A stretch of DNA of 35,159 bases from Gammaproteobacteria bacterium (GTDB lineage Bacteria > Pseudomonadota > Gammaproteobacteria > Arenicellales > Poriferihabitantaceae), in assembly GCA_011523765.1 (NCBI GenBank), contig WTGA01000038.1, positions 1 through 35,159 on the forward strand. Reading direction: 5' to 3'. Below, piece by piece: positions 9,397 to 34,662 of the stretch. The position numbers were made by a program, and so were the translations under genes. A model generated the notes under the pieces. That model saw only the letters and a list, made by a program, of their open reading frames with translations. It was not told the DNA's origin and did not search any database. Position 1 is the first letter of the stretch. The number at the start of each line of letters is the position of its first letter.

Positions 9397-9466
9397 CCTG
9401 GCTGTCTCCTAGTCTCCATGGATGCTTTGGGGATATTTTATCAAAACCGGGCCCTCCCTGTGCAGG

Positions 9467-10258
9467 TTACTCATGGGCAACCCCCAGGTACGCATCAATG
9501 ACCCGCTGATCGCTTCGGACCTCATCCGGCGTGCCGTCTGCCAGTTTCTTGCCGTAGTCCAGGACCACGACACGATGGGAAATATCCATCACCACGCCCA
9601 TGTCATGCTCGATCAGGGCGATCGTGGTGCCGAATTCATCATTGACATCCAGAATGAACCGGCACATGTCCTCCTTCTCTTCCAGGTTCATGCCCGCCAT
9701 CGGTTCGTCCAGCAGCAGGAGTTTCGATTCCGCCGCCAGGGCCCTGCCCAGTTCCACACGCTTTTGCAAACCATAGGGGAGCCGCCCGACCGGGGTCTTG
9801 CGGATGGATTGTATCTTCAGAAAGTCGATGATCTCCTCGACCTTTTCACGGTGTTCCATTTCTTCCCGTTCGGCAGGTCCCCTCCAGAGCCCCTGCCAGA
9901 ACATGTTGCATTTCATGTTGATCAGTCTCCCCGACATGAGGTTGTCCAGTGTGCTCATCCCCTTGAACAGGGCGATATTCTGGAAGGTGCGGGCGATTCC
10001 CAGCCGTGCAACTTCGTGGGAAGGCATCGGGCCGCGCAGCCGGCCGTCAAACCAGACTTCGCCTTCCTGGGGGTGATAAAACCCGTTGATCACATTCAGC
10101 ATGGAGCTTTTGCCGGCCCCGTTGGGACCGATAATGGCCCGGATCTCCCCTTCCAGGATATCGAAGCTGATATCCCTCAATGCCTTGACTCCCCCGAACG
10201 ACAGTGAAATGTTTTTCACTTCCAGTAAGACATCGCGGGACATTCGTTCGGTGTTCAC
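9467..10258 (-). CDS. livG: Branched-chain amino-acid-type ABC ATP-binding protein (LivG-like)
   Basis: LLEVKNISLSFGGVKALRDISFDILEGEIRAIIGPNGAGKSSMLNVINGFYHPQEG; GLQKRVELGRALAAESKLLLLDEPMAGMN. Confidence 0.92.
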   Translation of the reverse strand: MNTERMSRDVLLEVKNISLSFGGVKALRDISFDILEGEIRAIIGPNGAGKSSMLNVINGFYHPQEGEVWFDGRLRGPMPSHEVARLGIARTFQNIALFKGMSTLDNLMSGRLINMKCNMFWQGLWRGPAEREEMEHREKVEEIIDFLKIQSIRKTPVGRLPYGLQKRVELGRALAAESKLLLLDEPMAGMNLEEKEDMCRFILDVNDEFGTTIALIEHDMGVVMDISHRVVVLDYGKKLADGTPDEVRSDQRVIDAYLGVAHE

Positions 10259-12210: not shown

Positions 12211-12277
12211 GTGCCGTGTAGAGACAGGCTCTGAATGGGGGTCCGTTAGATTTTAATGCATGTCACCAAAATGTGCA

Positions 12278-12700
12278 TCAGATATGTTGACTCCAGTCCG
12301 GAGGAACGGAATAGGTTGCGGTGACATGGGCAACCGGTTCCGGCAGACCCTCGGAAAACAGGAAGATTTCACAAACCATCAGCCTCTTCCCTGCCTTGAG
12401 CAACCGGCATTCCCCAAGAATGTCCCGGTCCGCAGACGGCTTTCTCAGGAAATTGATGTTCAAGCTGGTGGTCACTGCCAGCGCGACTTCCCCTGCCTTG
12501 CCCAGGATGGCCACATAAGCCGCACAGTCTGCGACGCTCATCAGCGTTGGGCCGGAGACCGTCCCGCCCGGCCGCAGGTGCTCATGGCCGATTTTCTGCC
12601 TCAAAACCGAGGTTCCTTCTCCGATACTTTCCACAATACAGGTGTTTTGCGGAAACACCCGCGACAAAAATGCACGGGCCTGCTCAACATTCATGGACAA
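12278..12700 (-). CDS. PaaI-family hotdog thioesterase
   Basis: [28 protein letters not shown]...[14 protein letters not shown]. Confidence 0.85.
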
Positions 12701-12804
12701 TGCTCATCAATCCGGGGTCGTTGTCTGTCATGGACCACCCTGTGGCCGCTTCATCACGGGGATGTCGCGTTTCATCCCGGTGATATTGGTTCCCCGATTA
12801 TAGT

Positions 12805-12824
12805 TGACGTTTACGTAAACGTCA
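12805..12824. promoter_or_regulatory. Perfect 20-bp palindrome TGACGTTTACGTAAACGTCA, probable LiuR-type (MerR family) operator
   Basis: Direct reading. Located in the divergent region between the thioesterase/ACS operon and isovaleryl-CoA dehydrogenase. Confidence 0.75.
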
Positions 12825-12865
12825 TGTATTTTTTCACATTCCCTAGGAACCGGACATTGACCGTC

Positions 12866-14029
12866 ATGAATACCTTCCCTGCACTCAATTTCCATCTTGG
12901 CGAAGAGCTCGACCTGCTCCGGGATGCCGTGCAGGCATTCAGCCAACAGGAAATCGCGCCGCTCGCCGATGCAATCGACCGTCGCAACGAATTTCCGGTT
13001 CCGTTGTGGCGAAAACTGGGGAACATGGGGTTGCTGGGCATCACCGTCGGCGAGGAATTCGGCGGCACCGACATGGGCTACCTGGCACATATCATCGCCA
13101 TGGAGGAAATCAGCCGGGCCTCCGCGTCGGTCGGCCTGAGTTATGGGGCCCATTCCAATTTGTGCGTCAACCAGATTTACCGAAACGGCAATCCGGACCA
13201 GAAATCCCGGTATCTGCCCAAACTGGTCTCCGGCGAGCACATTGGAGCCCTTGCGATGTCGGAACCCAATGCCGGGTCCGACGTGGTCAGCATGGGGATG
13301 AATGCCCGGGACGAAGGCTCCCATTTCGTTCTGAACGGAAGCAAAATGTGGATTACCAATGGCCCGGATGCGGATGTCGTCGTGGTCTACGCCAAGACAG
13401 AACCGGCACTGGAATCCGGCGGCATCACCGCTTTTATCGTCGAGAAGGAATACGGCATTGAAGTGGCACAAAAACTCGACAAGCTGGGAATGCGGGGCTC
13501 GAATACCGGTGAACTGGTGTTGAAAAATGTCGAGGTTCCCAGGGAAAACGTCCTGCGTGAAGTGAACGCAGGGGTCAAGGTACTGATGAGCGGTCTCGAT
13601 TTTGAACGCGCGGTCCTCTCCGGCGGCCCGCTGGGCATCATGCGCGCCTGCATGGATGTGGTGGTTCCGTATGTGCATGAACGCAGGCAGTTCGGACGGC
13701 CCATTGGAGAGTTCCAGCTGATGCAGGGGAAACTGGCGGACATGTATACGACCCTGAATGCCTGCCGTGCGTACGCCTATGCGGTCGGACGTACCTGTGA
13801 CCTCGGTGAAACCAGCCGAAAGGATGCGGCAGGCGTCATCCTTTACGCCGCGGAAAAAGCGACCTGGATGGCACTGGAAGCCATCCAGGCACTGGGGGGA
13901 AACGGGTACATCAACGATTACCCCACCGGAAGGCTGTTGCGGGACGCCAAGCTGTATGAAATCGGAGCGGGAACCTCTGAAATCCGGCGGATGCTGATCG
14001 GCCGGGAACTGTTCAGCGAAAGTCGATGA
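12866..14029 (+). CDS. liuA: Isovaleryl-CoA dehydrogenase
   Basis: Acyl-CoA dehydrogenase with IVD-like [53 protein letters not shown] and [41 protein letters not shown]. Confidence 0.92.
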
Positions 14030-14259
14030 GAAACGCTCCAAAACAGCCCGGACCCCCGGTACCCCTTCCTGCGGGGGGCTGCCGGGAAGATGGCCTGTCC
14101 CAACGATTGCCATGACCGGCAACCGGAACAGGATGGAAGATTTCCCCGAAAAACGGCTTCCCCGAAAGGTCGAAGGCCTCGACGGGCCTGCCCGGCCCGG
14201 AAAGCGCACCGGACAAAACGACCCCGGATTTTTACCGAACGCCCTGCGGAGTACATTCC

Positions 14260-15447
14260 ATGCCGGATGATCCCGTCGTGATTGCGTCCTTTGCCAGAAC
14301 CCCCATGGGCAGCTTCCAGGGCTGCTTCCGCGGGCTGGCCGCTCATGAACTGGGGGCACAGGCGGTCCAGGCCGCGGTGGAACGTGCCCAGGTCGACCGC
14401 AGCGAGATCGATGAGGCCATCCTGGGAAATGTATTGTCCGCCGGCCAGGGACAGGCTCCCGCCCGTCAGGCCGTCCTCGGAGCCGGCCTGCCGCTGTCCA
14501 CCCACTGCACCACAATCAACAAGATGTGCGGGTCCGGAATGAAAGCAACCATGCTTGCCCACGATTTGTTGCGCGCGGGGGTCAACCGGGTCATGGTGGC
14601 CGGGGGGATGGAGAGCATGACCAATGCTCCGTACCTGTTGCTGAAAACCCGGTCCGGGCAGCGGATGGGGCATGGACAGCTGATGGATCACATGTTTCTG
14701 GACGGCCTGGAAGACGCCTATGAGAAAGGGGCGTTGATGGGGGCCTTCGCAGAGTCCTGTGCACAACGATACGGCTTTACCCGGGAGGCGCAGGACGAAT
14801 TTGCGATGACCTCCCTGGCCCGCGCACAAAATGCCAGCAAGGACGGCAGCTTTGATGCCGAAGTGACCCCGGTAGTGGTCCGGAACAAACAGGGAGAAAC
14901 CCTCGTTGAAAGAGATGAACCGCCTTTCAGGGCGCAGATTGAAAAAATACCCCGTTTAAGACCGGCCTTCAGGGAAAACGGGACCGTGACCGCTGCGAAT
15001 TCCAGTTCCATCTCCGATGGTGCCGCCGCCATGGTGCTGATGAGACGCTCGACCGCACAACGCCGGGGCATCAAACCCCGGGCAGTCATCCTCGGACACA
15101 GCACCCATGCCCAGGAACCCGGCTGGTTTACAACCGCACCGGTGGGGGCCATTGACAAATTGCTGGCATCGGTGAACTGGGAAGCGGAAGATGTGGACCT
15201 GTTCGAAGTCAATGAGGCCTTTGCCGTCGTGACCATGGCGGCAATGCGTGAACACCGCATTGACCATTCAAGAATCAATGTTCACGGAGGGGCCTGTGCA
15301 CTGGGGCATCCCGTTGGCGCTTCGGGAGCACGCATCCTGGTGACTCTCCTGTCCGCACTGGAACAGAAGAATCTGACCCGCGGCCTGGCATCGCTGTGTA
15401 TCGGCGGCGGGGAGGCGACGGCCATGGCCATAGAACGGTGTCCATGA
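14260..15447 (+). CDS. Acetyl-CoA C-acyltransferase (thiolase)
   Basis: THCTTINKMCGSGMKA active-site Cys; VNVHGGACALGHPVGASGARI-like and CIGGGEATAMAIE C-terminal motifs. Confidence 0.93.
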   Translation: MPDDPVVIASFARTPMGSFQGCFRGLAAHELGAQAVQAAVERAQVDRSEIDEAILGNVLSAGQGQAPARQAVLGAGLPLSTHCTTINKMCGSGMKATMLAHDLLRAGVNRVMVAGGMESMTNAPYLLLKTRSGQRMGHGQLMDHMFLDGLEDAYEKGALMGAFAESCAQRYGFTREAQDEFAMTSLARAQNASKDGSFDAEVTPVVVRNKQGETLVERDEPPFRAQIEKIPRLRPAFRENGTVTAANSSSISDGAAAMVLMRRSTAQRRGIKPRAVILGHSTHAQEPGWFTTAPVGAIDKLLASVNWEAEDVDLFEVNEAFAVVTMAAMREHRIDHSRINVHGGACALGHPVGASGARILVTLLSALEQKNLTRGLASLCIGGGEATAMAIERCP

Positions 15448-15471
15448 CTCTCCCCCTGGAGCCTGCGCACG

Positions 15472-17079
15472 ATGGCTGAGCTGAAATCCTGCATGGACCC
15501 GGATTCCCGGGAGGCCCGGGACAACCGGGCCGCCATGGATGCGGCCGTCGGTGATCTTCATGGGAAGCTCCGACGAATCGCGTTGGGTGGAAGCAAGGCG
15601 GCCCGGAACCGGCACACTGACCGCGGCAAACTGCCGGTCCGGGAGAGAATCAACCAGCTGCTGGACCCCGGCACGCCTTTCCTGGAACTCTCCCAATTCG
15701 CCGGATGGGGGATGTACGGCACCGACGTGTCGGCGGGCGGAGTCATTACCGGTATCGGCAGCATCCAGAACACGGAATGCATGATTGTCGCCAACGATGC
15801 CACGGTCAAGGGGGGAACCTACTTTCCGATTACCGTCAAGAAACATCTTCGTGCCCAGGAAATTGCCCTGGAAAACAATCTCCCGTGCCTCTACCTGGTC
15901 GATTCCGGTGGCGCGTTTCTGCCCCTTCAGGACGAGGTTTTTCCGGACAGGGAGCACTTTGGAAGAATTTTCTACAACCAGGCCAATCTGTCGGCGGCCG
16001 GCATTCCCCAGATTGCCGTGACCATGGGAAGCTGTACCGCGGGCGGTGCCTACGTCCCGGCGATGTGTGATGAAAGCATCATCGTGCGCAACCAGGGGAC
16101 CATTTTTCTCGGGGGCCCTCCCCTCGTCCGGGCCGCGACCGGTGAAGAGGTCAGCGCGGAAGAACTGGGTGGGGCGGAGGTGCACGGCAGGACCTCGGGG
16201 GTTGTCGATCATATTGCAAACGATGACTATCATGCTCTGGGCATGGCGAGGACCCTTGTTGGCAACCTGAACCGGGTCAAGCGCATTCACCTGAAATGCC
16301 GCGAACCCGCGGAACCCCGGTACCCCGCGGAACAGTTGTACGACATTGTTCCGGCAGACCCGCACAAGCCTTTCGAGGTTCGCGAGGTCCTGGCCCGCGT
16401 CACCGATCGCAGCGAACTGGATGAATTCAAGCTGAATTTCGGCACGACGCTGGTCTGCGGGTTTGCACATATACACGGCTATCCGGTCGGGATACTGGCC
16501 AACAACGGCATCCTGTTTTCCGAATCAGCGATCAAGGGCACCCACTTTATCGAACTGTGTGCACAACGGAAAATCCCCCTGGTCTTTTTGCAGAATATTA
16601 CGGGTTTCATGGTCGGGAAAAAATATGAGGCGGGCGGCATTGCCAAGGACGGCGCCAAGATGGTCACTGCAGTGGCCAACGCACGGGTGCCGAAGTTCAC
16701 GGTGATCATCGGCGGCAGTTTTGGAGCGGGCAATTACGCCATGTGCGGGCGTGCGTTCGGAGCCAGGTTCGTCTGGACATGGCCGAATGCCCGCATTTCG
16801 GTCATGGGAGGAGAACAGGCCGCCAATGTGCTGGCACAGGTCAGGTCGGATGCCATGGCAAAAGAGGGAAAGTCCTGGGGGGAGGCGGAACAGGCCGAAT
16901 TCAAGGCGGCGATTCGGGCACAATACGAAACCCAGGGCCACCCCTACTATGCCAGTGCCCGTTTATGGGATGACGGCATCATTGATCCCGTCGACACGCG
17001 CAGGGTGCTTGCACTGGGCCTGTCGGCGTCCCTCAATGCCGCGATCGAGGAGACCCGGTTCGGTGTCTTCAGGATGTAG
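15472..17079 (+). CDS. liuB: Methylcrotonyl-CoA carboxylase carboxyltransferase (beta) subunit
   Basis: [112 protein letters not shown]. Confidence 0.93.
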
Positions 17080-17081
17080 GC

Positions 17082-19076
17082 ATGTTTGAAAAACTGCTGA
17101 TTGCCAATCGGGGAGAAATCGCCTGCCGGGTTGCACGGACCGCAAAACGGATGGGGATTCCGACGGTGGCCGTCTATTCCGACATTGACCGCCATGCACT
17201 GCACGTCAAGCAGTGCACCCAAGCCATTCCCATCGGCGGTGCGACCACGCTGGAATCCTACCTGGATACCGGGAAAATTCTCAAGGCGGCGGAACAAAGC
17301 GGTGCGACGGCCATCCATCCAGGCTACGGTTTTCTCTCGGAGAATGCGGAATTTGCTGAAATGTGTGCCCGCAACGGCATCACGTTCATCGGTCCGACGG
17401 CCCGGTCGATCCGGATAATGGGTTCGAAAAGTGCCGCCAGGCAATGTATGGCCGATGCCGGCGTACCGGTCTTGGCCGGATATGACGGAGAGGACCAGTC
17501 GGTCTCGACCCTGACCCGCGAAGCCGGTAAAACCGGGTTTCCGCTTTTGATCAAGGCCGTTTCCGGGGGCGGTGGCAAGGGGATGCGCCGGGTCGGGAAA
17601 CCGGAAGACTTTGCCGGATCACTCGCTGCCGTCCAACGGGAAAGCCGGTCTGCATTTGCGGATGAACGGGTGATCCTGGAGAAATACCTGGCCGAAGCGC
17701 GCCATATTGAAATCCAGGTCTTCGGCGACCGGCACGGCAACCGGGTCCACCTGTTTGAAAGAGAATGTTCCGTGCAGCGCCGAAACCAGAAAATGATCGA
17801 GGAATCCCCGGCTGCCGGAATGACCGGGTCCCTGCGCCATGACATGACCGAAGCGGCCATTGCCTGTGCCCGGTCCATCCAGTATATCGGCGCGGGGACC
17901 GTGGAATTTCTCCTTGCGCCGGATCATTCCTTTTATTTCATGGAGATGAATACACGCCTGCAGGTGGAACACCCGGTCACCGAGATGGTAACAGGACTGG
18001 ACCTGGTGGAATGGCAGATTCTTGTCGCGGCCGGCCATGCCCTGCCATGCCTGCAGCCCGACATCCCACTTTCCGGGCATGCCATCGAAGCACGCATCTA
18101 TGCGGAAAACCCGGAACAGGAATTCCTGCCCACCGCGGGCAAAGTGCACTACCTGGAGCAACCCGAAACGAATGCCCGTACCCGGGTGGATACGGGGGTC
18201 GAGTCCGGTGATGAAATCAGCGTCCATTATGATCCCATGATTGCCAAGCTGGTAGTATGGGCCGGAACACGCAATGAAGCGGTTTCCAGCGTCGCAAGGG
18301 CACTCCGGAACTACCATGTTCTTGGCCTGGACAACAACATCCCCTTTCTCCATCGCCTGGTCAATCACAGCGCTTTCAAAAATGGATGCTACAGCACCAG
18401 TTTCGTGGAAAATCACATCGAAGAACTGCTGGCCGGGCCCCGGCACCATTTCAACCGTGCCCTCATGCTGGCCGGCAGCTATTTCCTGCTGGCCGGGAAC
18501 CAGCCGAACCACCTTCCCGACCCGAACGATTCAGACCGCTGGTCGCCCTGGAAACACAGTGACCTCTGGCAGAACGGACTGGAAAGACACCTTTCCGTCT
18601 TCCTTGAACACCGCTCCGAAACCCATACGGTCCGCATTTCGACGCATGCAGCCGGACTGCGCTTCGACCTTCCCGATGAAAGCGTGGAGGCCCGGTTCCC
18701 GGAGATCACTGCACACCGGATCAGCCTGCAGACCACTGCAGGAAAATTGACCGGGGTGATGGCGGCAGCGGGTTCCGTCCTGTTTCTTCGCCACCGGAAC
18801 GAACACTACCGTTTCAGGCATGTGGACCGGCGGTTTGACGGACAGCCTGCCGTCCATTCCGCCAATTCACTGAACGCACCCATGCCAGGCTCTGTCGTAT
18901 CCATCTCGGTGAATGAAGGACAGACGGTGACAGAAGGCGAACCGGTGATGGTCATCGAAGCCATGAAAATGGAACACCAGGTCCGGGCACCCCGTCCCGG
19001 GAAGGTTCACGCCATCCACTTTGCCGAGGGAGACCAGGTGAAGGAAGGACAGGTATTGCTGGAGATCGGACGATGA
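17082..19076 (+). CDS. liuD: Methylcrotonyl-CoA carboxylase biotin-containing (alpha) subunit
   Basis: Biotin carboxylase domain FEKLLIANRGEIACRVARTAKRMGI...HPGYGFLSENAEFA; C-terminal biotinyl motif VIEAMKMEHQVRAP. Confidence 0.93.
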   Translation: MFEKLLIANRGEIACRVARTAKRMGIPTVAVYSDIDRHALHVKQCTQAIPIGGATTLESYLDTGKILKAAEQSGATAIHPGYGFLSENAEFAEMCARNGITFIGPTARSIRIMGSKSAARQCMADAGVPVLAGYDGEDQSVSTLTREAGKTGFPLLIKAVSGGGGKGMRRVGKPEDFAGSLAAVQRESRSAFADERVILEKYLAEARHIEIQVFGDRHGNRVHLFERECSVQRRNQKMIEESPAAGMTGSLRHDMTEAAIACARSIQYIGAGTVEFLLAPDHSFYFMEMNTRLQVEHPVTEMVTGLDLVEWQILVAAGHALPCLQPDIPLSGHAIEARIYAENPEQEFLPTAGKVHYLEQPETNARTRVDTGVESGDEISVHYDPMIAKLVVWAGTRNEAVSSVARALRNYHVLGLDNNIPFLHRLVNHSAFKNGCYSTSFVENHIEELLAGPRHHFNRALMLAGSYFLLAGNQPNHLPDPNDSDRWSPWKHSDLWQNGLERHLSVFLEHRSETHTVRISTHAAGLRFDLPDESVEARFPEITAHRISLQTTAGKLTGVMAAAGSVLFLRHRNEHYRFRHVDRRFDGQPAVHSANSLNAPMPGSVVSISVNEGQTVTEGEPVMVIEAMKMEHQVRAPRPGKVHAIHFAEGDQVKEGQVLLEIGR

Positions 19077-19963
19077 TCCCGGAATCCGTGCGGGTCGTCG
19101 AAGTGGGTCCCCGGGACGGCCTCCAGAACGAGCCGTCGGCATTGCCCCCGGATGTCCGTGCGGATTTCATCCTTTCCCTGCAATCCTGCGGATTGAAACA
19201 CATTGAAGGAGGCAGTTTTGTCCACCCCGAACGGGTCCCCCAAATGAGGGGAACGGACCAGGTACTGGCACGCCTGCCCCTGGCAGGAGAGTGCCGTTTC
19301 CCGGTGCTGGTACCCAATGTCAGAGGGCTGGAAGATGCACGGACGGCGGGCGCCCGGGACATTGCGGTATTCGCGGCGGCCTCCGAGACATTCAGCCAAA
19401 AGAACATCAACTGCGGAATTCGTGAAAGCATTCGCCGGTTCAGGAAGGTCTGTACCCAGGCACAGGCCAGCGGCATCACCATCCGGGGATATATTTCCTG
19501 CGTCATGGGTTGTCCTTACGAAGGCGATATCCCGGTATCCGCCGTGGAAGAGGTTGCAGTCCAGCTGATCGAGCTCGGGTGCCATGAAATCTCCCTTGGC
19601 GACACGATTGGTGTCGGCACTCCCGGCAAAACCGGTGAACTCATCGAAACACTGGGAAACCAGATCAACCGGAACCGGATAGCCGTGCATTTTCATGATA
19701 CCTATGGGCAGGCACTGGCCAATATTTATGCCGCTTTGCAGCAGGGAGTATCCGTCATCGACAGTTCGGTGGCCGGCCTGGGTGGCTGCCCGTATGCACA
19801 GGGGGCCAGCGGCAATGTTGCGACCGAAGATGTGGTGTATATGCTAAATGGACTGGGGGTCCAACACGGGATCGACCTGGAAAAACTGGTCCAAGCGGGA
19901 CGGAATATCTGTACAATCCTGAATCGCCCGGTAATGTCCAGGGTGAACCTGGCCATGCGCTGA
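19073..19963 (+). CDS. liuE: Hydroxymethylglutaryl-CoA lyase
   Basis: VEVGPRDGLQNEP, FHDTYGQALANIYAALQQGVSVIDSSVAGLGGCPYAQGASGNVATEDVVYMLNGLG. Overlaps the MCC alpha stop (ATGA). Confidence 0.93.
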   Translation: MIPESVRVVEVGPRDGLQNEPSALPPDVRADFILSLQSCGLKHIEGGSFVHPERVPQMRGTDQVLARLPLAGECRFPVLVPNVRGLEDARTAGARDIAVFAAASETFSQKNINCGIRESIRRFRKVCTQAQASGITIRGYISCVMGCPYEGDIPVSAVEEVAVQLIELGCHEISLGDTIGVGTPGKTGELIETLGNQINRNRIAVHFHDTYGQALANIYAALQQGVSVIDSSVAGLGGCPYAQGASGNVATEDVVYMLNGLGVQHGIDLEKLVQAGRNICTILNRPVMSRVNLAMR

Positions 19964-21682: not shown

Positions 21683-22721
21683 CCCGGATTCCCCGGAAAA
21701 TCGGGAGGGTCGCAGAACCGGTGCAACCGCCAACGAACCCATGCCCGACACGATGCCTTTCAATCGACTGGAACGGGCGGGGGTGGGCGCCAGCCCTGAA
21801 GCCAGGCAGTTTCTGGAACAGAACCTGCCGGTTGAACCGGACCGCGACCCTCCCCGAAAGAATATCGAAACCCTGCGACAGGAAACCCGGGAGGCCTGCC
21901 AGCCCGCCATCGACCAGGCACTGGAACGTTTCCGCCCGGTCATTGACAGCAGGGAGATCGGCGGAGTCCGGTGCTTGTCCATCTCGCCCCCGGGGTCGGG
22001 AAAAACACCCGGGGACACCCTGTTGTTGTACTTTTTTGGGGGAGGCTATATCCAGGGCAGTCCCGAAGAAGACCTGCCCATTACCGCGGTCCTGTCACAT
22101 CGGTTGAATCTCACCGTGATTTCCCCTGATTACCGGTTGGCACCGGAAAATCCGTATCCCGCCGCCATCGAAGACGGCCGGATGGTATGCCGGGAGATCC
22201 TGGGCAAGATGAATGTCCGCAATCTTTTGCTGGTCGGTGAATCCGCGGGAGGCAACCTTGCCCTGCAAACCCTTCTTTGGATCAGAAGGCAAAACCTGGC
22301 CATGCCCAGGGCCTGTGCACTGCTGTCTCCATGGGTCGATTTGACCAACCAGGGGGACTCTTTTGATTTCAACAATGGCCGCGACCCCACCTTGCTGACC
22401 GCGTACGCCGAGACTGCCGCCGAACTCTTCGCCGGAAAACTGCCGGTTGACCATTCCGGCCTTTCACCGCTGCACGGGCAATATGACGAATCCTTTCCGC
22501 CGATGATGGTCACCAGCGGGACCCGGGACCTGTTGCTGAGCACCTGCGTACAACTCGTAGCCAGACTACGGGCCTCGGGGATTCAGGTCGATTTTCGCGT
22601 ATGGGAAAACATGTGGCATGTATTTGAGTATTACCCGCAGATACCGGAAGCGGGTCAGTCGCTCGCAGAAATTTGTCAGTTTCTGGCCCGGCACTCCAAC
22701 GGGGGGTGCAAAGCAAGGTGA
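21670..22721 (+). CDS. Alpha/beta hydrolase, hormone-sensitive-lipase-like
   Basis: FFGGGYIQGSPEED oxyanion motif, ISPDYRLAPENPYPAAIED, LLVGESAGGNLAL nucleophile elbow. The ATG overlaps the DUF2889 CDS end. Confidence 0.88.
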
Positions 22722-22743
22722 GTGCGGGTATCCGTACCACTCC

Positions 22744-23913
22744 ATGGCCCTCTGGCCTATCCACGTGACCATGAATGCGGTTGCACCCAGGTTTCTGTCG
22801 GCCTGGATGCTTGCACTCATGGTCTCCCTATCCACACAGATTTTCAATTCAAAAAAGACCATGGCTGACGGGGAAACACTTCATGCAATCCGGGTCCCTG
22901 CCGAGTGGGAGCCCCAGGAAGCCATTTGGCTGCAATGGCCCGGAAGATACGAAAAGGCCTATGAAACCGCATTCGGAAAAATGGCAACCGTGATCTCTGG
23001 TTACCAGAAGTTGCATATCATTCATGACAATGACCGGATTCGAAAAGAGGCCGAAACCGCGATATGGTCCGCCGGCGGCAACCCGGACCATGACCACATC
23101 GTGTGGCACAAAATCCGGAATGACGGTGCGTGGATGCGGGACAACGGACCGGTCTATGTCATCCAGGACGGGGAAATGCGCATTCAGAACTGGCAGTTCG
23201 ATGCCTGGGGCGGAGCGTTTGGCGCGGACATCCCGTTTGCGCATGACAATGCCATCCCCGATGCAGTGGGAAAATTCCTGGATATGCCCGTGGACCGAGT
23301 GAATATCGTCCACGAAAGAGGCAACCTGGAATTTAACGGGGTCGATACGGTACTCCTGAACTGGAGCACGATGGGTGACCCGAGGAGAAACCCCGGCTAT
23401 GTTCGGGAACAGGCAAAGAGGGATTTAAAGAAGTACTTTGGCGTGAGCAAGGTGGTCTTTGTGCAAGGCGTCCCCGAAGGCGACTTGACCAATGGGCATA
23501 TCGATGGCATTGCCCGATTCATCAATCCAACCACCGTCGTCGTTCCGGAGTGTACCAGAGCTTCCTTGTGCAAACCGGGCGACGGGAAGAACGACCAGAT
23601 ATTCGATGACGCCGCACAAACCATCAAAGCAGCCGGATTTACCGTTATTCGACATCCCATTGAAGGGGTCGGCACCCACAAAGGGGTGGTATATGACGCC
23701 AACTATATGAACTGGATCGTCGGAAACGGATTTGTCATTGCTGTGGGGTTTGACAATCCTGGCACGGATGCGAGTGCCAAACGACGCATCGAATCCTACT
23801 TTCCGGGCCGCGATGTGCATATTATTGAAATGCTCGGATCGTGGATGGGGGGCGGGGGCGCACACTGCCACACCAATGACCAGCCCGCATTTTCAACCAT
23901 CCACTTTCAATAG
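22744..23913 (+). CDS. Agmatine deiminase/peptidylarginine deiminase family protein with N-terminal hydrophobic extension
   Basis: RVPAEWEPQEAIWLQWPGRYEKAYE, NDGAWMRDNGPVYVI, HERGNLEFNG, EGDLTNGHIDGIARFI, GGGGAHCHTNDQPA (catalytic Cys region). N-terminus RFLSAWMLALMVSLSTQIF resembles a signal peptide. Start could be 22771 or 22861 instead. Confidence 0.85.
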   Translation: MALWPIHVTMNAVAPRFLSAWMLALMVSLSTQIFNSKKTMADGETLHAIRVPAEWEPQEAIWLQWPGRYEKAYETAFGKMATVISGYQKLHIIHDNDRIRKEAETAIWSAGGNPDHDHIVWHKIRNDGAWMRDNGPVYVIQDGEMRIQNWQFDAWGGAFGADIPFAHDNAIPDAVGKFLDMPVDRVNIVHERGNLEFNGVDTVLLNWSTMGDPRRNPGYVREQAKRDLKKYFGVSKVVFVQGVPEGDLTNGHIDGIARFINPTTVVVPECTRASLCKPGDGKNDQIFDDAAQTIKAAGFTVIRHPIEGVGTHKGVVYDANYMNWIVGNGFVIAVGFDNPGTDASAKRRIESYFPGRDVHIIEMLGSWMGGGGAHCHTNDQPAFSTIHFQ

Positions 23914-24917: not shown

Positions 24918-25754
24918 TCAGGTTGCCCTGCCCCAGAACAGCTTTCTCACCTTTTCGCTGTTCACCCTCCCCGGCTCTTCAGCAAAACAAAGCACCGGAA
25001 CCAGTCTTGGAGTGGGACCTGAAACCCGGGTTACCCGGTGCAGTGTCTGTTTCCCACCAAATATCAGCAGGGTCCCTGGCACAAAGGGCAAATTCTCAAC
25101 GCCACTTCGGTTTCCATGCAATACACTGCCGACCATTGATTGTTCGTTTTCCATCCCCCGGATCCGGGGCACATATTCAAACTCTCCGCCCTGCTCGGGT
25201 GACTGGAGCATCAGTGTGACGGAGTACTCAGACTCGTCGAAATGCCATCCATGCTCGCCGCCCTCCACAAACACGTTAATGGAACACGCACCCATCGGGT
25301 CCGAAAACCGGTAAAAGGGAGACTTGCCCAATACACGTCCTATAAAATCTTTCAGGGGATCCCAAAGATATATCTGGTTGAGGAGCGACCCGGGATCAAT
25401 CCGGTCATAGGGGATGGAACCCACCACGGTCCTTTCCATGGTATGTTCCACTGAACCGGGACCCTTGGGGCAATCGGGCGTATCCAGGTAAGCATTGTGG
25501 GAGTTATCGCAGAAATACGCACTGTCCATCCACTGGCTGGCCTCCCCGGCCAGGATATCCAGCGCTGATGGAAGGATGAATTCCGGGAGCTCACAGATAC
25601 CCGTACGCCGATAGACCTGCCGGCAATCCGCAATAAATTCGTCTTCCAGCGATTCATCCGCGCCATAAAACGGATATTTCCCAAGGTTGATACACTCATT
25701 CATAGGCTCAACGGGTCCTCTTCTTCCCCCTTGCAATGGCTCTTTGTTCTCCAT
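24918..25754 (-). CDS. 2-oxoglutarate/Fe(II)-dependent oxygenase, resembling ArpA/BesD-like amino-acid hydroxylase/halogenase relatives
   Basis: MGACSINVFVEGGEHGWHFDESEYSVTLMLQSPEQGGEFEYVPRIR contains HxD; distal LHRVTRVSGPTPRLVPVLCF contains His and Arg. Confidence 0.75.
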   Translation of the reverse strand: MENKEPLQGGRRGPVEPMNECINLGKYPFYGADESLEDEFIADCRQVYRRTGICELPEFILPSALDILAGEASQWMDSAYFCDNSHNAYLDTPDCPKGPGSVEHTMERTVVGSIPYDRIDPGSLLNQIYLWDPLKDFIGRVLGKSPFYRFSDPMGACSINVFVEGGEHGWHFDESEYSVTLMLQSPEQGGEFEYVPRIRGMENEQSMVGSVLHGNRSGVENLPFVPGTLLIFGGKQTLHRVTRVSGPTPRLVPVLCFAEEPGRVNSEKVRKLFWGRAT

Positions 25755-27309: not shown

Positions 27310-28134
27310 GTGAACGCACGCAACATGAAACCCGCACAGTCAGTACCCGACGAGGCAATGACGCTCATCGAACACCTCCCCCATGACCTGGATGGCGGAA
27401 TCGCGAGCCGGGCCAGTATCGGGTTGATTGTACTGGCCACCGACTACACCATCGAATATGAATGGCGGCGGATATTCCATGCAGTAAACGGTGTCGCGGT
27501 CTATCACAGCCGCATTCCGAATGACGATGAGATCACTCCGGACAATCTCAGGGCGATGGCACCCCGTATCACCGATTCGACATCCCTGATCACCCCGGAT
27601 ACCCCGCTGGATGTCGTTGCCTATGGCTGCACTTCCGCCTCCATGGCCATCGGCGAGGAAACGGTGTTTGAGCAGATCAGGAAAGCGGAACCTGGTGCAA
27701 AATGCACTACCCCCATCACGGCTGCATTGGAGGCATTCAAGGCCTTCAACGCAAAACGGATTGGTGTTTTGACCCCCTATCCCGCGGATGTCAATCGAAT
27801 TGTCGCCGGGTATATGGCCGGCAAGGGAATCGACGTGCCCGTCTTCGGATCGTTCAACGAGGACCTGGATACGCGCGTATCCCGTATCTCCCCGGCTTCC
27901 ATTGAAAACGGGGTCCGGGAACTGGCCAGACAGGCCTGCGTCGATGCCATATTCGTCTCGTGCACCTCGGTACGGCTCGTTGATGCCTGCAAAGAGATGG
28001 AAGGCCAGCTGGGCATCCCGCTCACCTCTTCCAACCATGCCATGGCCTGGCATGCCATGCGGCTGGCGGGAATCGAGGACCGGTTGACTGAATTCGGATC
28101 ATTGTATGGGCTTTCGACGGCAATGACCGCCTGA
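27310..28134 (+). CDS. Asp/Glu racemase-superfamily protein, maleate isomerase/arylmalonate decarboxylase/EutA-like
   Basis: ASIGLIVLATDYTIEYEWRRIF; two catalytic-type Cys contexts VVAYGCTSASMAIGEE and AIFVSCTSVRLVDAC; RIGVLTPYPADVN. Confidence 0.85.
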   Translation: MNARNMKPAQSVPDEAMTLIEHLPHDLDGGIASRASIGLIVLATDYTIEYEWRRIFHAVNGVAVYHSRIPNDDEITPDNLRAMAPRITDSTSLITPDTPLDVVAYGCTSASMAIGEETVFEQIRKAEPGAKCTTPITAALEAFKAFNAKRIGVLTPYPADVNRIVAGYMAGKGIDVPVFGSFNEDLDTRVSRISPASIENGVRELARQACVDAIFVSCTSVRLVDACKEMEGQLGIPLTSSNHAMAWHAMRLAGIEDRLTEFGSLYGLSTAMTA

Positions 28135-28159: not shown

Positions 28160-28188
28160 GACCGGAGAAGGACACCGGTCTATTTTTT
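28160..28188 (+). terminator. Rho-independent terminator overlapping the convergent gene end
   Basis: GACCGG-AGAAGGACA-CCGGTC followed by TATTTTTT. Confidence 0.65.
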
Positions 28189-28842
28189 CCGGGCAAGAAA
28201 CAGGCCGTCACCCACCGCCACCATGGCAATGTCCACCCGGTCATCACTGGAAATGTGCCGGTTAATCGCTCGTATGGCCACGGTACTTTCCTCGTTGTTT
28301 CCGTCATCAATGACGGCACCCCCCCAGAAAACATTGTCGACAATGATCAATCCATTGCGCCGCACCAGCCGGACGGCTCGCTCATAGTATTTCCCGTAGT
28401 TCAGCTTGTCCGCGTCAATGAAAACCAGGTCGGCGTGACCTTCCAGGCCACCGGACAACAGGTCATCCAGCGTATCCAGCGCGGGACCGATTCTCAGTTC
28501 GATCTTTCCGGCCACGCCCGCCTGTTTCCAGAAGCTCTTTCCGATGTCCGTCCACTCGGTGCTGAGGTCACAGGCAATCACCCTGCCGTCATCGGGCAAG
28601 GCCTGGGCCATGCACAAGGTGCTGTAACCCGTGAACGTGCCGACCTCAATCACGACCTTTGCGTTGATCAGCTTTACCAGCATTGCCATGAACTGCCCCT
28701 GGTCAGGTGAAATCTGCATCTCTGCCATTTCCATTTCCCGGGTGACTTCCCTCAATTGTCTTGATGCATCCGATTCGCGGACCGAAATCGATACCAGGTA
28801 TTCATACAGCGCTGCCTGATGGGTTAACGGGTTTTTGGGCAC
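28180..28842 (-). CDS. O-methyltransferase (class I SAM, catechol/caffeoyl-CoA OMT type)
   Basis: LINAKVVIEVGTFTGYSTLCMAQALPDDGRVIACDLSTEWTDIGKSFWKQAGV...ADLVFIDADKLNYGKYYERAVRLVRRNGLIIVDNVFWGG. Confidence 0.93.
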   Translation of the reverse strand: MPKNPLTHQAALYEYLVSISVRESDASRQLREVTREMEMAEMQISPDQGQFMAMLVKLINAKVVIEVGTFTGYSTLCMAQALPDDGRVIACDLSTEWTDIGKSFWKQAGVAGKIELRIGPALDTLDDLLSGGLEGHADLVFIDADKLNYGKYYERAVRLVRRNGLIIVDNVFWGGAVIDDGNNEESTVAIRAINRHISSDDRVDIAMVAVGDGLFLARKK

Positions 28843-28852
28843 GGTCTTCCTC

Positions 28853-29527
28853 CTATCTTTGGGTGATGCTCGAAATCACGATTTCCCCATGGGGGCCATC
28901 CACGACGAGTTCCATGTACGGTGAAACGGAGTCCTCAATCTCATGAATATCCACCAGGGAGCCGGCCCCGATTGATTTCAGTGCCTCTTCGAGCCATTGG
29001 CGGCGTGGATGATACAAACGGAAGGATTTGAACTGGCAATCCGGTTGGGACATCTGTTCAGATGGATGAAAGTCAACCAGCCATTCAATACAAAGAGGAA
29101 TGAAGCCAGCACCGGGCATCCCGCCATCCTCTGTCAAAGCCACCTTCCACTTCAGGTGATCCCGGCGTGCTTCCACAACGGTGCCAAGGGGAAGGTCTGA
29201 ACCCGACAGCAGGGAATCCAGCGAGTCCGTATTCACCGCCCAGGTCAACAATTTCGGGCCGCAGTCGAGAGAGTTCCGGACATGGGGATCATCCAGGCCA
29301 AACCATCGGGGACGGGACGGCGCCCGCATTTCGGGATGAATGGCGATCACTTCAAGATACACACCATGGCCCAGCGACATGACCTTGTTGAAGGTTCCCA
29401 TCATGTCGTGGACGCCGCCATCCGGAATGGTAATTCCCATTTTTTCGTGGATGTAGGCGGCCCCCTGCTCCAGGGTCCTGGCCGCGATGACAATATGGTC
29501 CAACCGGGTCGGCATGAGCGGAGTCAT
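28853..29527 (-). CDS. VOC/glyoxalase-like domain protein
   Basis: TRLDHIVIAARTLEQGAAYIHEKMGITIPDGGVHDMMGTFNKVMSLGHGVYLEVIAIHPE. Overlaps the upstream M24 gene stop (ATGA). Confidence 0.85.
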   Translation of the reverse strand: MTPLMPTRLDHIVIAARTLEQGAAYIHEKMGITIPDGGVHDMMGTFNKVMSLGHGVYLEVIAIHPEMRAPSRPRWFGLDDPHVRNSLDCGPKLLTWAVNTDSLDSLLSGSDLPLGTVVEARRDHLKWKVALTEDGGMPGAGFIPLCIEWLVDFHPSEQMSQPDCQFKSFRLYHPRRQWLEEALKSIGAGSLVDIHEIEDSVSPYMELVVDGPHGEIVISSITQR

Positions 29528-30765
29528 TCAATCATACAGAGTCCATACGGAATCTCTTCGGTCGCTCTGACCACCCTGTCTTCGTAGAAAAGAAAGGATT
29601 CCACAACAAAGAAGGCACCGGCCTGGTCGGGCAGAAATACCTGGATTTCAAAGTTGACCGCCGTATTGGCTTCAAAAATCCTGTCCGCATTCTTCTGCGA
29701 CAGCGGGTCGTAGACAAAATTTCCCACCCAGTCGGAAAAAAAGCCGATCCCCATTTCATATCCCCCCACCCAGCCCCTGCTATCCCACAATCCCTGCTCT
29801 TCATAATACCGTTTCACCCGCTCATTGAGTTCGCGCACCGGCAGATTGGGCCACAAACAGTCATTGGCCACTGCCATGGCCCCGGCTGCACGTTCGGCCG
29901 CTTCCAGCACCCTGGGCGCCGGGGGTCCCACATGAAATGTCCGGGCAGCGTTGACATGGTACCGTTTATACACCCCGCACAAATCCAGTGTCACGACCTC
30001 GCCGCTCCGGATTTTCTTTCTCGTCGATACTCCGTGGGTTGCACAGGTCTTTTTGCCCGAAAGTACCGGCATCATCATCCCCGGCAATTCGCCGCCCGCC
30101 GAGGCCATTGCCCGGATCACCTCCCCCTGCACCGCCAGTTCGGTTGCATCCGGTCGGATGGCCAGGCCTGCAGCGGCCTGACCGATGGTCGCAATGCGTG
30201 CTGCCTCCTCGAGACAGGCCATTTCCGCCGGGGACTTTTTCCAGCGCACCTCCCGCAAGACATGGCTGCCATCGACCACTTTCGCGCCTGCGCGCTCCAT
30301 TCTGGACTGGATTAACTCGCTGACCACGCGGTTGGGTCGCATGGCCCAATATTCAAGCCCTACCGTACCGTTCAGCCATCCCTCTGCCTTGAGTTCGTCG
30401 GCAATGAACCGGGTGCCATCCCGATAACTTTCCGGAGGAAAATAACGGACATCTCCATCCACTGAAAACATCCTGGTCAGGAAGGCCTCCCGTTCGGATT
30501 CAAAATGAATGAACCCGTCATGGTCCACATGCACGGCGAAACCATTGGACGGCGGCCATTCGACCGGACTTTCGGTTTGATACCACATGCATCGGTAACC
30601 GCTCAGGTAGTACATGCTTTCCGGGGATGTCAAAAAGAGGCAGTCGATTTCTTCTCTCGCCATCACTGCCCTGATCCGGAACAAGCGCTGATCAAATTCC
30701 TCTTGGGGAAATGCCGGCTCCCGGTCCGGCACGGCATCAAAATAAATTTCGTCTCGATACGGCAT
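29524..30765 (-). CDS. M24 (pita-bread) family hydrolase, creatinase/ectoine-hydrolase-like, with altered metal ligands
   Basis: FDQRLFRIRAVMAREEIDCLFLTSPESMYYLSGYRCMWYQ N-domain; C-domain LDLCGVYKRYHVNAARTFHVG and GYEMGIGFFSDWVG replace the canonical D...D and H motifs. Confidence 0.88.
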   Translation of the reverse strand: MPYRDEIYFDAVPDREPAFPQEEFDQRLFRIRAVMAREEIDCLFLTSPESMYYLSGYRCMWYQTESPVEWPPSNGFAVHVDHDGFIHFESEREAFLTRMFSVDGDVRYFPPESYRDGTRFIADELKAEGWLNGTVGLEYWAMRPNRVVSELIQSRMERAGAKVVDGSHVLREVRWKKSPAEMACLEEAARIATIGQAAAGLAIRPDATELAVQGEVIRAMASAGGELPGMMMPVLSGKKTCATHGVSTRKKIRSGEVVTLDLCGVYKRYHVNAARTFHVGPPAPRVLEAAERAAGAMAVANDCLWPNLPVRELNERVKRYYEEQGLWDSRGWVGGYEMGIGFFSDWVGNFVYDPLSQKNADRIFEANTAVNFEIQVFLPDQAGAFFVVESFLFYEDRVVRATEEIPYGLCMIE

Positions 30766-30938: not shown

Positions 30939-31790
30939 ATGCATTCAGCGACCCCCAATCCGATCACACAGGCCTACCAGCGTGATGGTTTCTTCTTTCC
31001 CGTTGACACCATGTCAAGGGAACAGGCCGGGGCATACCGAAAAGAACTGGAGGAAGTAGAAAGTCGCGCCTCAGCCGAACCGGGGCGATACAATACGGCA
31101 ATCTGGTTCACCAATGCCAATTTTGTCCTCCCCTTTGTGGATGAAATCAGTCGACTGCCCACTATTCTCGAGCCGGTAAAGTCCGTACTCGGGCCCAACA
31201 TTCTGGTCTGGAATGCAAGTTTTTTCATCAAGGAGCCCCATACTCCGGACTTTGTCAGCTGGCACCAGGACCTCAAATACTGGGGGCTCACGGATTCCGG
31301 GGAAGTGACCGCGTGGGTCGCACTGTCCGATGCGGATGTCCGAAGCGGTTGCATGCGGTTTGTGGCCGGCAGCCATGAAACCGGTCTGCTGGATCACCGG
31401 GATACTTTTGCCGATGAAAATCTCCTCAGCCGGGGCCAGGAACTGGCCGTTGAGGTGGATGAAAGCAAAGCGGTCGATGTAGTGCTGGAGCCCGGACAGA
31501 TGTCGCTGCACCATGGACACACCTTTCATGCTTCCCATCCCAACCAGTCGGATGACAGACGGATCGGGCTGGCCATCCGGTACATCACCACGGAAATGGC
31601 ACAGCGTGACGGCATCCGGCCCTATGCCCACCTTGTTGCCGGAGAAGACCACTGCGGAAACTTTCAGTTGTTATCCGGACCAATCGAAACCATGGCCCGG
31701 CATAACGTCGAACTCGCGGTTGAAAATATAAAAATGGTCGAAAATTTTTTCTATGAAGAAGCGGCGATGCCCGGCAAAGCCCTGCGATAA
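30939..31790 (+). CDS. Phytanoyl-CoA dioxygenase (PhyH) family 2OG-Fe(II) oxygenase
   Basis: YQRDGFFFPVDTMS, FVSWHQDLKYWGL (HxD), SDADVRSGCMRFVAGSHE, HHGHTFHASHPNQSDDRRIGLAIRYI (distal His/Arg). Confidence 0.92.
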   Translation: MHSATPNPITQAYQRDGFFFPVDTMSREQAGAYRKELEEVESRASAEPGRYNTAIWFTNANFVLPFVDEISRLPTILEPVKSVLGPNILVWNASFFIKEPHTPDFVSWHQDLKYWGLTDSGEVTAWVALSDADVRSGCMRFVAGSHETGLLDHRDTFADENLLSRGQELAVEVDESKAVDVVLEPGQMSLHHGHTFHASHPNQSDDRRIGLAIRYITTEMAQRDGIRPYAHLVAGEDHCGNFQLLSGPIETMARHNVELAVENIKMVENFFYEEAAMPGKALR

Positions 31791-31836
31791 TGCCCATTTT
31801 CCCGATTCAACCCAACTCACGAACCAATTCAATCCT

Positions 31837-33492
31837 ATGAACGGTGCCGACTTAATTGCCGAAATACTGAAAAAGGAAGGGGTGGAATTCATCCCCGCAT
31901 TTCCACATTCCGATATTCTGGACAGTGCAGCGAAAATCGGGATTCGGCCGATCATAGTCCGCCAGGAACGTCAGGCCCTGCATATCGCAGATGGCTACTC
32001 CCGGATGAGTGCAGGCCGGAAGATCGGGTGCACCACGGTTCAATACGGCCCGGGGTCAGAAAACGCCATGGGTGCGGTGGCCCAATGCTACGCAGACAAC
32101 GTTCCCATCCTGCACATCCCCGGAGGCTATGCCAGAAATGATGCCTGCGTTTCTCCCAATTTCCGGGCATCCCGCAACATGCAGCATATCAACAAGTGGT
32201 GCGAAACGGTTCCTCACGCCGGGCGCATCCCCCAAATGATGCAAAATGCATTCGCTATTGTCAGAAATGGCCGGCCCGGCCCGGTGACCCTGGAAGTCCC
32301 CGCAGACCTGTTCATCGAGGAAGTGGGAAGCGAACTGGCCGATTCATACAAGATACAGTCCCGTTCAACACCGGTTGCCGATATCAGCCAGATCAGTGAA
32401 TTGACCGCAATCCTGCTGAAGGCCAAAAATCCCCTGATTATTGCCGGCCAGGGTATCCTCTATGCCCAGGCATCGGAAGAACTGGTGCGCCTGGCCGAAC
32501 TCGCCAGAATACCGGTCGCATCGACCTTGAACGGCAAGAGCGCCTTTCCTGAAAACCATCCACTTGCATTGGGTTGTGCCGGAGGCGCACGACCCGACCC
32601 GGTCAATGACTTCCTCAACCGGGCCGACCTCATCATCGGCCTGGGGACCAGCTTTACCAAGTCGGACTACATCACCCCATTTCCGACCCGGGGCAAAACA
32701 CTGGTCCAGCTAACGAATTATGAAGGTGATCTTTCCAAGGACTACCCGGTCGAACTGGGGATTCTCGGTGATGCAAAGCCGACTCTGGCGGCCCTGACCA
32801 ACATTCTTTCCGCCAATGCGGACACCCTGCGGAATCTCCGGCCGGAAATCACGTCGGAGGTGCGGGAAAGAAAGGCCGTTTTCATCAAGAAGTGGCTGCC
32901 TCTTCTGTCATCGGATGAAGAACCCATCAATCCGTACCGGGTCATCCGGGACCTGATGCACACTGTCGACCGCAGGAAAACCGTCGTCACGCACGAAGCG
33001 GGATCCCCCCGGGACCAACTGACACCATTTTGGGAGTCCATTGTCCCCCACGGGTACATCGGCTGGGGCAAAACCACCCAGCTCGGTATGAGCCTGGGAC
33101 TGGTCCAGGGTGCGAAACTGGCAAAACCGGACTGGTCCTGCGTGAACATAATGGGAGACGCGGCCATTGGGATGGTGGGGATGGACCTGGAAACCGGGGT
33201 CCGGTGCGGCATCCCCACCTTGACCATCGTGTTCAAAAACAGCGTGATGGGCGGGTATACACAGTACCATCCTGTGGCCACGGAAAAATACGGTATCCAC
33301 AAACTGGGCGGCGACTATGCCAACCTTGCCACCGCACTGGGGGCCTATGGAGAACGGGTGGAAAAAGCCATGGAAATCGTCCCGGCAATCCAGCGTGGCC
33401 TGGACGAAAATACCCGGGGGCGACCTGCCCTGATTGAGGTCATCACCAAGGAAGAATCCCGGATGGCGAAAAACCTGCCCGACTTTTCCTGA
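31837..33492 (+). CDS. Thiamine-diphosphate-dependent enzyme (acetolactate synthase/2-hydroxyacyl-CoA lyase superfamily)
   Basis: Catalytic Glu context VRQERQALHIADGYSRMS; ThDP motif GDAAIGMVGMDLETGVRCGIPTLTIVFKNS. Confidence 0.93.
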   Translation: MNGADLIAEILKKEGVEFIPAFPHSDILDSAAKIGIRPIIVRQERQALHIADGYSRMSAGRKIGCTTVQYGPGSENAMGAVAQCYADNVPILHIPGGYARNDACVSPNFRASRNMQHINKWCETVPHAGRIPQMMQNAFAIVRNGRPGPVTLEVPADLFIEEVGSELADSYKIQSRSTPVADISQISELTAILLKAKNPLIIAGQGILYAQASEELVRLAELARIPVASTLNGKSAFPENHPLALGCAGGARPDPVNDFLNRADLIIGLGTSFTKSDYITPFPTRGKTLVQLTNYEGDLSKDYPVELGILGDAKPTLAALTNILSANADTLRNLRPEITSEVRERKAVFIKKWLPLLSSDEEPINPYRVIRDLMHTVDRRKTVVTHEAGSPRDQLTPFWESIVPHGYIGWGKTTQLGMSLGLVQGAKLAKPDWSCVNIMGDAAIGMVGMDLETGVRCGIPTLTIVFKNSVMGGYTQYHPVATEKYGIHKLGGDYANLATALGAYGERVEKAMEIVPAIQRGLDENTRGRPALIEVITKEESRMAKNLPDFS

Positions 33493-33510
33493 CGACCGGC
33501 GCTTCGGGGC

Positions 33511-34662
33511 GTGAACATTGAACAAAAATACCCCAGCGTCCGGGATATGCGCAAGGCGGCCCGAAAGCGGATCCCCCGGTTCGCATATGACTACCTGTCG
33601 GGAGGAATTGGACTGCATAGCGCTCTGCGCAATAACCGCGATGCCCTGGACAACGTCATCATTATTCCGAGGTACCTGGTTGGCAATGCCGATCACCCCC
33701 GGACCGGCTGCACCTTCCTGGGTGAGCAGTATGATTTTCCGTTTGGCGTAGCTCCGGTTGGCCTGGGGGGCATTATCTGGCCCCAGGCCGCCCAACACCT
33801 CGCCTCTGCGGCGCAATCCCACAACATTCCATTCTGTCTGAGCGGTTTTGCCACGGCTTCCATTGGGGAAATCGCCGATGTGGCCGGAAAACATGCCTGG
33901 TATCAGCATTACATGTGCGCAGATGAAAAGCTGAATGAAATCCTGTTCAAACGCGCTCTGGATTGCGGATACGAAAATCTGATCATCACCGTTGACATTC
34001 CAACCGTTACCCGACGGGACCATGATATCCGGAACGGTTTGTCTGTACCGCCCAGATTGAATCTGCGCACCCTGTGTGATGCAGCACGCCGACCCCGCTG
34101 GGCCATGGAAACCCTGTTGTCGGGCGTTCCGCAGTTTCAGAATTACAGGGAATTTTTTCCCAAAAACGCGAACCTGGAGAAAATTGGCATGTTCATCCAG
34201 GAAGTGATCGAAGGACATGCCTCCCTGGAGCGACTGAAACGGGTACGGGACCAATGGCCCCACAACCTGATTGTCAAAGGGGTCCTGAATCCCGACGATG
34301 CCAGGGACTGCCTCCATATCGGGGCCGATGCCATTGTCGTTTCCAATCACGGCGGCAGACAACTGGATGCCGCACCTTCGGCGATTGACTGCCTGCCGGC
34401 CATTCGGGATACGGTTGGCCCTGATTTCCCCCTGATCGCAGACGGTGGTGTATTGACCGGCCTGGATATTATCCGTTATCTGGGCAAGGGTGCGGATTTT
34501 GTTTTTGCAGGCCGGGCATTCATGTATGCGGTGGGCGCAATGGGCAAACCGGGTGCGGCCCATGTCATGAATGTCCTGTCTGAAGAATTTCGCTGCACCA
34601 TGGCGCAGATCGGATGCGGGAAGATTGCTGATCTGCCCGGTTTTCTGGAGCCCGGATCCTGA
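33511..34662 (+). CDS. FMN-dependent alpha-hydroxy-acid dehydrogenase/oxidase (LldD/glycolate oxidase family), GTG start
   Basis: IPRFAYDYLSGGIG, FPFGVAPVGLGG, YQHYMCAD, VSNHGGRQLDAAPSAIDCLPAI, IADGGVLTGLDIIRYLGKGADFVFAGRAFMYAVGAMGKPG. Confidence 0.93.
   Translation: MNIEQKYPSVRDMRKAARKRIPRFAYDYLSGGIGLHSALRNNRDALDNVIIIPRYLVGNADHPRTGCTFLGEQYDFPFGVAPVGLGGIIWPQAAQHLASAAQSHNIPFCLSGFATASIGEIADVAGKHAWYQHYMCADEKLNEILFKRALDCGYENLIITVDIPTVTRRDHDIRNGLSVPPRLNLRTLCDAARRPRWAMETLLSGVPQFQNYREFFPKNANLEKIGMFIQEVIEGHASLERLKRVRDQWPHNLIVKGVLNPDDARDCLHIGADAIVVSNHGGRQLDAAPSAIDCLPAIRDTVGPDFPLIADGGVLTGLDIIRYLGKGADFVFAGRAFMYAVGAMGKPGAAHVMNVLSEEFRCTMAQIGCGKIADLPGFLEPGS

Follow-up and report, generated by a model that had tools for sequence, protein, structure and literature searches.

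A PhyH, ThDP and FMN gene trio in a gammaproteobacterium: a possible CoA-independent route of one-carbon shortening

What reaction sequence might be carried out by three adjacent genes that encode a PhyH-family hydroxylase, a thiamine diphosphate (ThDP) enzyme and a flavin mononucleotide (FMN) enzyme? The genes lie on contig WTGA01000038.1 of a gammaproteobacterium of the Arenicellales (GCA_011523765.1). The 35,159-nt window analysed spans the entire contig, which is part of a draft genome of 3.09 Mb that is 96% complete. A reading of the letters alone (the sequence-only reading) had likened the trio to peroxisomal α-oxidation. The answer that we tentatively favour from sequence comparisons is a coenzyme A (CoA)-independent oxidative route that would shorten a small and probably polar carboxylic acid by one carbon. 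Open reading frames and Pfam matches bore out the coordinates, shared strand and families of the three genes:

30939..31790, + strand, 283 aa: PhyH-family Fe(II)/2-oxoglutarate hydroxylase of the ThoJ-like subfamily with a complete HxD...H...R site (Pfam, residues, fold match)
31837..33492, + strand, 551 aa: ThDP enzyme of the uncharacterised family PRK06154 (NF004807) with the sub-clade signature PHSD...[YH]HP (NCBIfam, trees, alignment)
33511..34662, + strand, 383 aa: FMN-dependent 2-hydroxyacid dehydrogenase, mandelate/L-lactate dehydrogenase-like (Pfam, NCBIfam, PDB matches)

The intergenic gaps are 46 nt (PhyH–ThDP) and 18 nt (ThDP–FMN), and no terminator-like site was found on the + strand between the three genes. 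All Pfam scores were far above cut-off: 103.9 bits for PhyH, 120, 79 and 74 bits for three TPP_enzyme domains, and 382 bits for FMN_dh. The ThDP frame is open already from an ATG at 31753; the start at 31837 is backed by the residues MNGADLI, kept in homologues. The FMN gene has a GTG start. As had been noted from the letters, the operon contains no CoA ligase, the nearest AMP-binding genes being more than 18 kb away. The contig stops ∼500 nt past the FMN gene, so genes further downstream are out of view.

Families of the three encoded proteins

According to NCBIfam, the ThDP protein is a clear member of PRK06154 (NF004807, 'thiamine pyrophosphate-requiring protein'), with 740.3 bits against a cut-off of 607; this was the only family above its cut-off among the matches listed. 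Models for acetolactate synthase (ALS) reached at most 264 bits (TIGR00118, cut-off 538), that for 2-hydroxyacyl-CoA lyase (HACL) 170 bits (cut-off 600), and that for glyoxylate carboligase (GCL) 215 bits, far below its cut-off. In two trees, the PRK06154 proteins and the window protein formed one clade on a long stem (100/100). The references for oxalyl-CoA decarboxylase (OXC) and HACL/HACS formed a separate clade (100/100), with the window protein outside it. At the deeper level, a sister grouping of these two clades had weak support, 77/68 in one tree and 55/0 after references were added.

The motifs of the protein were examined by alignment. The cofactor glutamate, E44, was invariant in 88 family members and GD...N was kept. 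Where ALS, PoxB, Xsc, HACL and OXC references carry FQE/YEE, PRK06154 proteins carry NFxA-type residues (NFRA in the window protein). All five HACL/OXC references used contain the FQE/YEE motif, and its single occurrence among the 88 members was an accidental string match. A Gly conserved in reference enzymes is His24 in the window protein, within the sequence PHSD, and a [YH]HP motif lies near the C terminus. Both were present in 11/11 members of the window's sub-clade, whereas most of PRK06154 has xN and other residues at these sites. Overall, the sequence data indicate that this sub-clade is neither HACL/OXC nor ALS, both identities being ruled out by family scores, trees and the FQE/YEE motif, and that it belongs to a separate, fully supported PRK06154 clade. 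The proposed HACL1-type assignment was accordingly dropped, while the expectation that the enzyme is no canonical ALS held; the genome encodes a separate true ALS (L001, 842 bits). GCL identity was rejected as well, on the score and because the window protein keeps the ThDP glutamate, which is Val in GCL. Members of PRK06154 were found in Proteobacteria, Chloroflexota, Poribacteria, Nitrospinota, Armatimonadota and others. The literature searched held no mention of the family name, and nothing direct was found on this gene combination or on bacterial α-oxidation.

For the FMN protein, the top NCBIfam family was LldD (PRK11197), at 287 bits and below the cut-off of 376. Mandelate dehydrogenase (6bfg) aligned at 231 bits in a single stretch over residues 7–379, whereas hydroxyacid oxidase 1 scored 162 bits. 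The two PDB chains ranked above 6bfg are lactate oxidase repeats of artificial length, whose score sums four stretches. By these alignments, the FMN enzyme is closer to mandelate/L-lactate dehydrogenase than to the hydroxyacid oxidase to which the sequence-only reading had compared it.

The PhyH protein keeps the HxD motif (H109, D111), H197 and R207/R208, all invariant in ten homologues. Its best PDB match by both sequence and fold was ThoJ, a non-heme hydroxylase of thioholgamide biosynthesis that acts on a ribosomally synthesized and post-translationally modified peptide (RiPP) (33% identity, TM-scores 0.84/0.91; 6zyk, 6zyl), followed by SyrB2 and MysH. Human PHYH ranked 25th with a TM-score of 0.61. 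The window PhyH is no closer to phytanoyl-CoA hydroxylase than to many other hydroxylases, and its casting as an α-oxidation enzyme is not supported. Unlike ThoJ, it has catabolic neighbours; neither a RiPP precursor nor biosynthetic genes were found. Relatives in the class lie beside TmpA–TmpB (L127), a serine/threonine dehydratase (L126), kbl–tdh (L133, in the same genome), and 1-aminocyclopropane-1-carboxylate deaminase with aceE (L128). These unlike neighbourhoods make the fold no guide to substrate. A halogenase function was ruled out for this protein and for a HalD-family protein elsewhere in the window, as both keep the metal-binding Asp.

Recurring gene partners and a proposed pathway

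Our sample comprised 109 genomes from the order, 369 from the class, 60 relatives and contigs from GTDB (80 loci kept). ThDP genes 62–66% identical to that of the window occurred in genomes G015, G018, G322, G451, G452 and G453 and at loci L029, L030, L031 and L032. The FMN gene follows the ThDP gene in G015, G018 and G322, and follows an intervening GMC oxidoreductase gene in L030 and L031, so that the ThDP–FMN pair recurs in five other genomes. ThDP and PhyH recur together in three, all from another family of the same order: the gene order is ThDP–GMC–PhyH–agmatinase in G451 and G452, and ThDP–PhyH–agmatinase, partly visible, in G453. The agmatinase beside PhyH scores above the agmatinase cut-off. 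In L029, a single-contig chromosome assembly, GMC is followed by an FMN remnant of ∼52 residues (11282–11437), which looks like a truncated gene with only the first ∼50 residues left. Across the 11 loci of the PHSD sub-clade, including the window, the same-strand neighbours were FMN in 6 (plus the remnant), GMC in 6 and PhyH in 4; at least one of them stood next to the ThDP gene in every case. None of these partners accompanies the Phyllobacterium homologue (L033, 57%), whose sequence has lost or never had the [YH]HP part of the signature. The check on gene order that the sequence-only reading had proposed thus gave a divided answer: the pairs recur and the full trio does not.

Across PRK06154 as a whole, NAD-dependent D-2-hydroxyacid dehydrogenases adjoin the ThDP gene in the gammaproteobacterial loci L042, L054 and L066, and NAD 2-hydroxyacid dehydrogenases are divergent from it in the Dehalococcoidia loci L056 and L105. 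In L034, the ThDP gene is divergent from a HalD–aldehyde dehydrogenase–LDH group. When members were grouped at 70% identity, 2-hydroxyacid enzymes occurred within two genes of ThDP in 7 of 17 lineages. In lineage-weighted slots they filled 5.7/64 within two genes versus 0.2/56 further away (1.8/32 versus 0.2/32 at 60% grouping, 8 lineages), a descriptive contrast rather than an unbiased test, since the profiles were built from neighbours already noticed. The corresponding contrast for PhyH/HalD was weaker (1.8/64 versus 0.6/56).

We propose the following steps. The PhyH enzyme, identified by class and metal site, would hydroxylate a presumed substrate at a presumed position. The FMN enzyme would turn a presumed 2-hydroxy acid into the 2-oxo acid; this is the reaction of the mandelate and lactate dehydrogenases, whose class it shares. 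The PRK06154 enzyme, which has the fold and cofactor residues of its class, would then use ThDP to split the 2-oxo acid into CO2 and an aldehyde. In relatives, a GMC oxidoreductase may replace or join one oxidation step. One-carbon shortening, as put forward from the letters, still fits best, in the form of CoA-free oxidation with ThDP-dependent C–C cleavage, but through a 2-oxo acid and not a 2-hydroxyacyl-CoA.

This route would follow the logic of the mandelate pathway, preceded by a hydroxylase, and not that of peroxisomal α-oxidation. The mandelate pathway combines the FMN-dependent mandelate dehydrogenase MdlB with the ThDP-dependent benzoylformate decarboxylase MdlC. The window likewise has an FMN 2-hydroxyacid dehydrogenase, aligning end to end, and a ThDP enzyme in one operon; it differs in that its ThDP enzyme comes from another family and in its extra Fe/2-oxoglutarate hydroxylase. 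In the arginine transaminase pathway, the 5-guanidino-2-oxopentanoate decarboxylase AruI acts with a guanidinobutyrase. A ThDP enzyme and a ureohydrolase similarly occur together in G451 and G452 (and, partly visible, in G453), but the window ThDP protein is not AruI-like, and the genome's two AruI-like proteins are separate.

Several observations argue for the proposed route: the recurring ThDP–FMN and ThDP–PhyH pairs; the tight same-strand packing, free of + strand terminator-like sites; the oxidising partner and the PHSD...[YH]HP signature in all 11 loci; the 2-hydroxyacid dehydrogenases and slot enrichment elsewhere in the family; and the full-length alignment with 6bfg. Other observations weigh on the opposite side. 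The complete trio was found in no other genome of the samples, and most ThDP–FMN loci lack PhyH. No specific grouping joins the window PhyH to its counterparts in G451–G453, and their common ancestry appears supported to subfamily level only. With 15 PhyH genes in its own genome (G000), one chance neighbour is possible. The fold search described below does not separate decarboxylase, lyase and ligase. Finally, the gene set indicates no substrate, and the visible operon contains no aldehyde dehydrogenase.

A more specific version, which we consider improbable, is that the PHSD sub-clade is a new 2-oxo acid decarboxylase set amid interchangeable PhyH, GMC and FMN oxidation modules, and that these modules break down a carboxylic acid of the guanidino or methylated-amine kind by removing one carbon, agmatinase-type hydrolysis coming later in some bacteria. 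The agmatinase genes beside PhyH in G451–G453 and a PAD gene in the window (22618–23913; agmatine deiminase-like, well below cut-off) are weak hints of guanidino compounds. PRK06154 is a widespread family without an assigned function, and the PHSD sub-clade links it to 2-hydroxyacid/2-oxo acid chemistry. The ThDP–FMN pair offers a two-enzyme assay that could settle the PRK06154 reaction.

Alternative readings

In the main alternative, which we regard as rather unlikely, the ThDP enzyme would act as a carboligase, or as a C–C lyase on 2-hydroxyketones or 1,2-diketones. The FMN and GMC enzymes would supply carbonyl partners, and the ThDP enzyme would join or split two carbonyl units with no net loss of CO2. 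A structure model of the ThDP protein (pLDDT, a predicted confidence score, 93.7) matched GCL (TM-score 0.90), HACL structures (0.84–0.88), hydroxy-keto acid synthase, cyclohexane-1,2-dione hydrolase (CDH) and acetohydroxyacid synthase about equally, and the hydroxy-keto acid synthase BbmA, itself among the top folds, was the best PDB match by sequence. The PHSD loop adjoins the site of His28 in CDH; when His28 and N484 are both replaced, CDH can couple pyruvate with ketones (PMC12247030). His24 does not correspond to His28, with which Ser25 aligns. Against such a role, overall identity to GCL, BbmA and CDH is ∼25%, and the FQE/FQA motif that ALS and GCL carry is missing from PRK06154. The repeated pairing with unrelated families of 2-hydroxyacid dehydrogenases best fits a 2-oxo acid substrate, yet carboligases take 2-oxo acid donors too.

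Less probable still, and in our view unlikely, is that PhyH stands beside the pair by chance or serves a separate purpose, the module consisting of ThDP and FMN together with Glyoxalase_3, Methyltransf_3 and EutA-like genes. G015 and G018 have the ThDP–FMN pair with Glyoxalase_3 and Methyltransf_3 (and EutA in G015) and no PhyH. The number of PhyH genes in G000 and the unrelated pathways beside close PhyH relatives in L126, L127 and G000 itself point the same way. The 46-nt same-strand spacing speaks against a bystander, as does the arrangement in G451, G452 and G453, where PhyH comes downstream of a ThDP gene of this sub-clade, either immediately or after one other gene. Two tandem PhyH genes also lie 19–286 nt upstream of the ThDP gene in six poribacterial loci (L073, L090, L098, L099 and L106 at ∼6,200–8,000; L081 at ∼2,000–3,700). 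Two poribacterial genomes, however, hold 107 (G425, of L073) and at least 151 (G426, of L059) PhyH matches, and with more than 100 such genes each the tandem arrangement may represent shared descent of one chance event.

The α-oxidation analogue, in which PhyH would make a 2-hydroxyacyl compound and a HACL-type enzyme would cleave it, releasing a formyl unit together with an aldehyde, is very improbable: it resembles PHYH and HACL1 chemistry in outline, HACL is among the best fold matches, a GD(S/A)AxGxxGM-like motif is common to the ThDP protein and OXC/HACL, and one tree weakly joins the two clades, but the ThDP protein lies outside OXC/HACL with that sister support falling when references were added, the FQE/YEE motif and an adequate HACL score are missing, PhyH is nearest to ThoJ, and the operon has no gene for CoA activation.

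Neighbouring genes and further observations

Upstream of the trio, the window contains the following genes:

29524..30765, − strand: M24/creatinase-fold hydrolase; divergent gene 173 nt from the trio, with no counterpart found beside other ThDP–FMN pairs
28853..29527, − strand: Glyoxalase_3 protein; adjoins the ThDP–FMN pair in G015 and G018 too
28180..28842, − strand: Methyltransf_3 O-methyltransferase; neighbour in G015 and G018 too
27310..28134, + strand: EutA/arylmalonate decarboxylase-like protein, below both NCBIfam family cut-offs; neighbour in G015 too
24918..25754, − strand: HalD-family Fe/2-oxoglutarate enzyme with HFD; in L034, a relative is a neighbour of the ThDP gene

The HalD-family protein has HFD in place of the halogenase HxG, so that its metal site is complete and it is probably of the hydroxylase type. 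At 12260–19963, acyl-CoA dehydrogenase, thiolase, carboxyltransferase, biotin carboxylase and 3-hydroxy-3-methylglutaryl-CoA lyase-like genes stand in a row that looks like a leucine/isovalerate breakdown cluster.

Further observations concern related loci. Bmp/PnrA-type ABC importer genes (L125:1485–6117) come right after the ThDP–FMN pair in G015 and may encode a substrate carrier. In L165 (G004), EutA-, Glyoxalase_3- and FMN-like genes lie at ∼2,985–5,287 with no ThDP or PhyH gene between them, and the contig stops inside the FMN gene. The GMC gene at L187:3307–4825 is in two overlapping frames, a frameshift or an assembly error, and is intact in L186.

In L127 (3910–7026), a TmpA-like TauD enzyme, TmpB (above cut-off) and PhyH are consecutive, and this PhyH is a possible third step of trimethylaminoethylphosphonate breakdown. 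Phosphonate oxidation was rejected for the window trio, near which there is no phosphonate gene. On contig C41 of the same genome as the window (L133:581–4865), a gene for a sterol-desaturase-like membrane protein comes after kbl–tdh–PhyH; a relative with 43% identity to this membrane protein is divergent from the ThDP gene in L185–L187. DmdA/GcvT-like demethylase genes lie near the ThDP–GMC–PhyH operon in L186 and L187 (∼8,600–10,250) and recur in L177, near the genome's own FMN paralogue, and in L126, near the closest PhyH relative.

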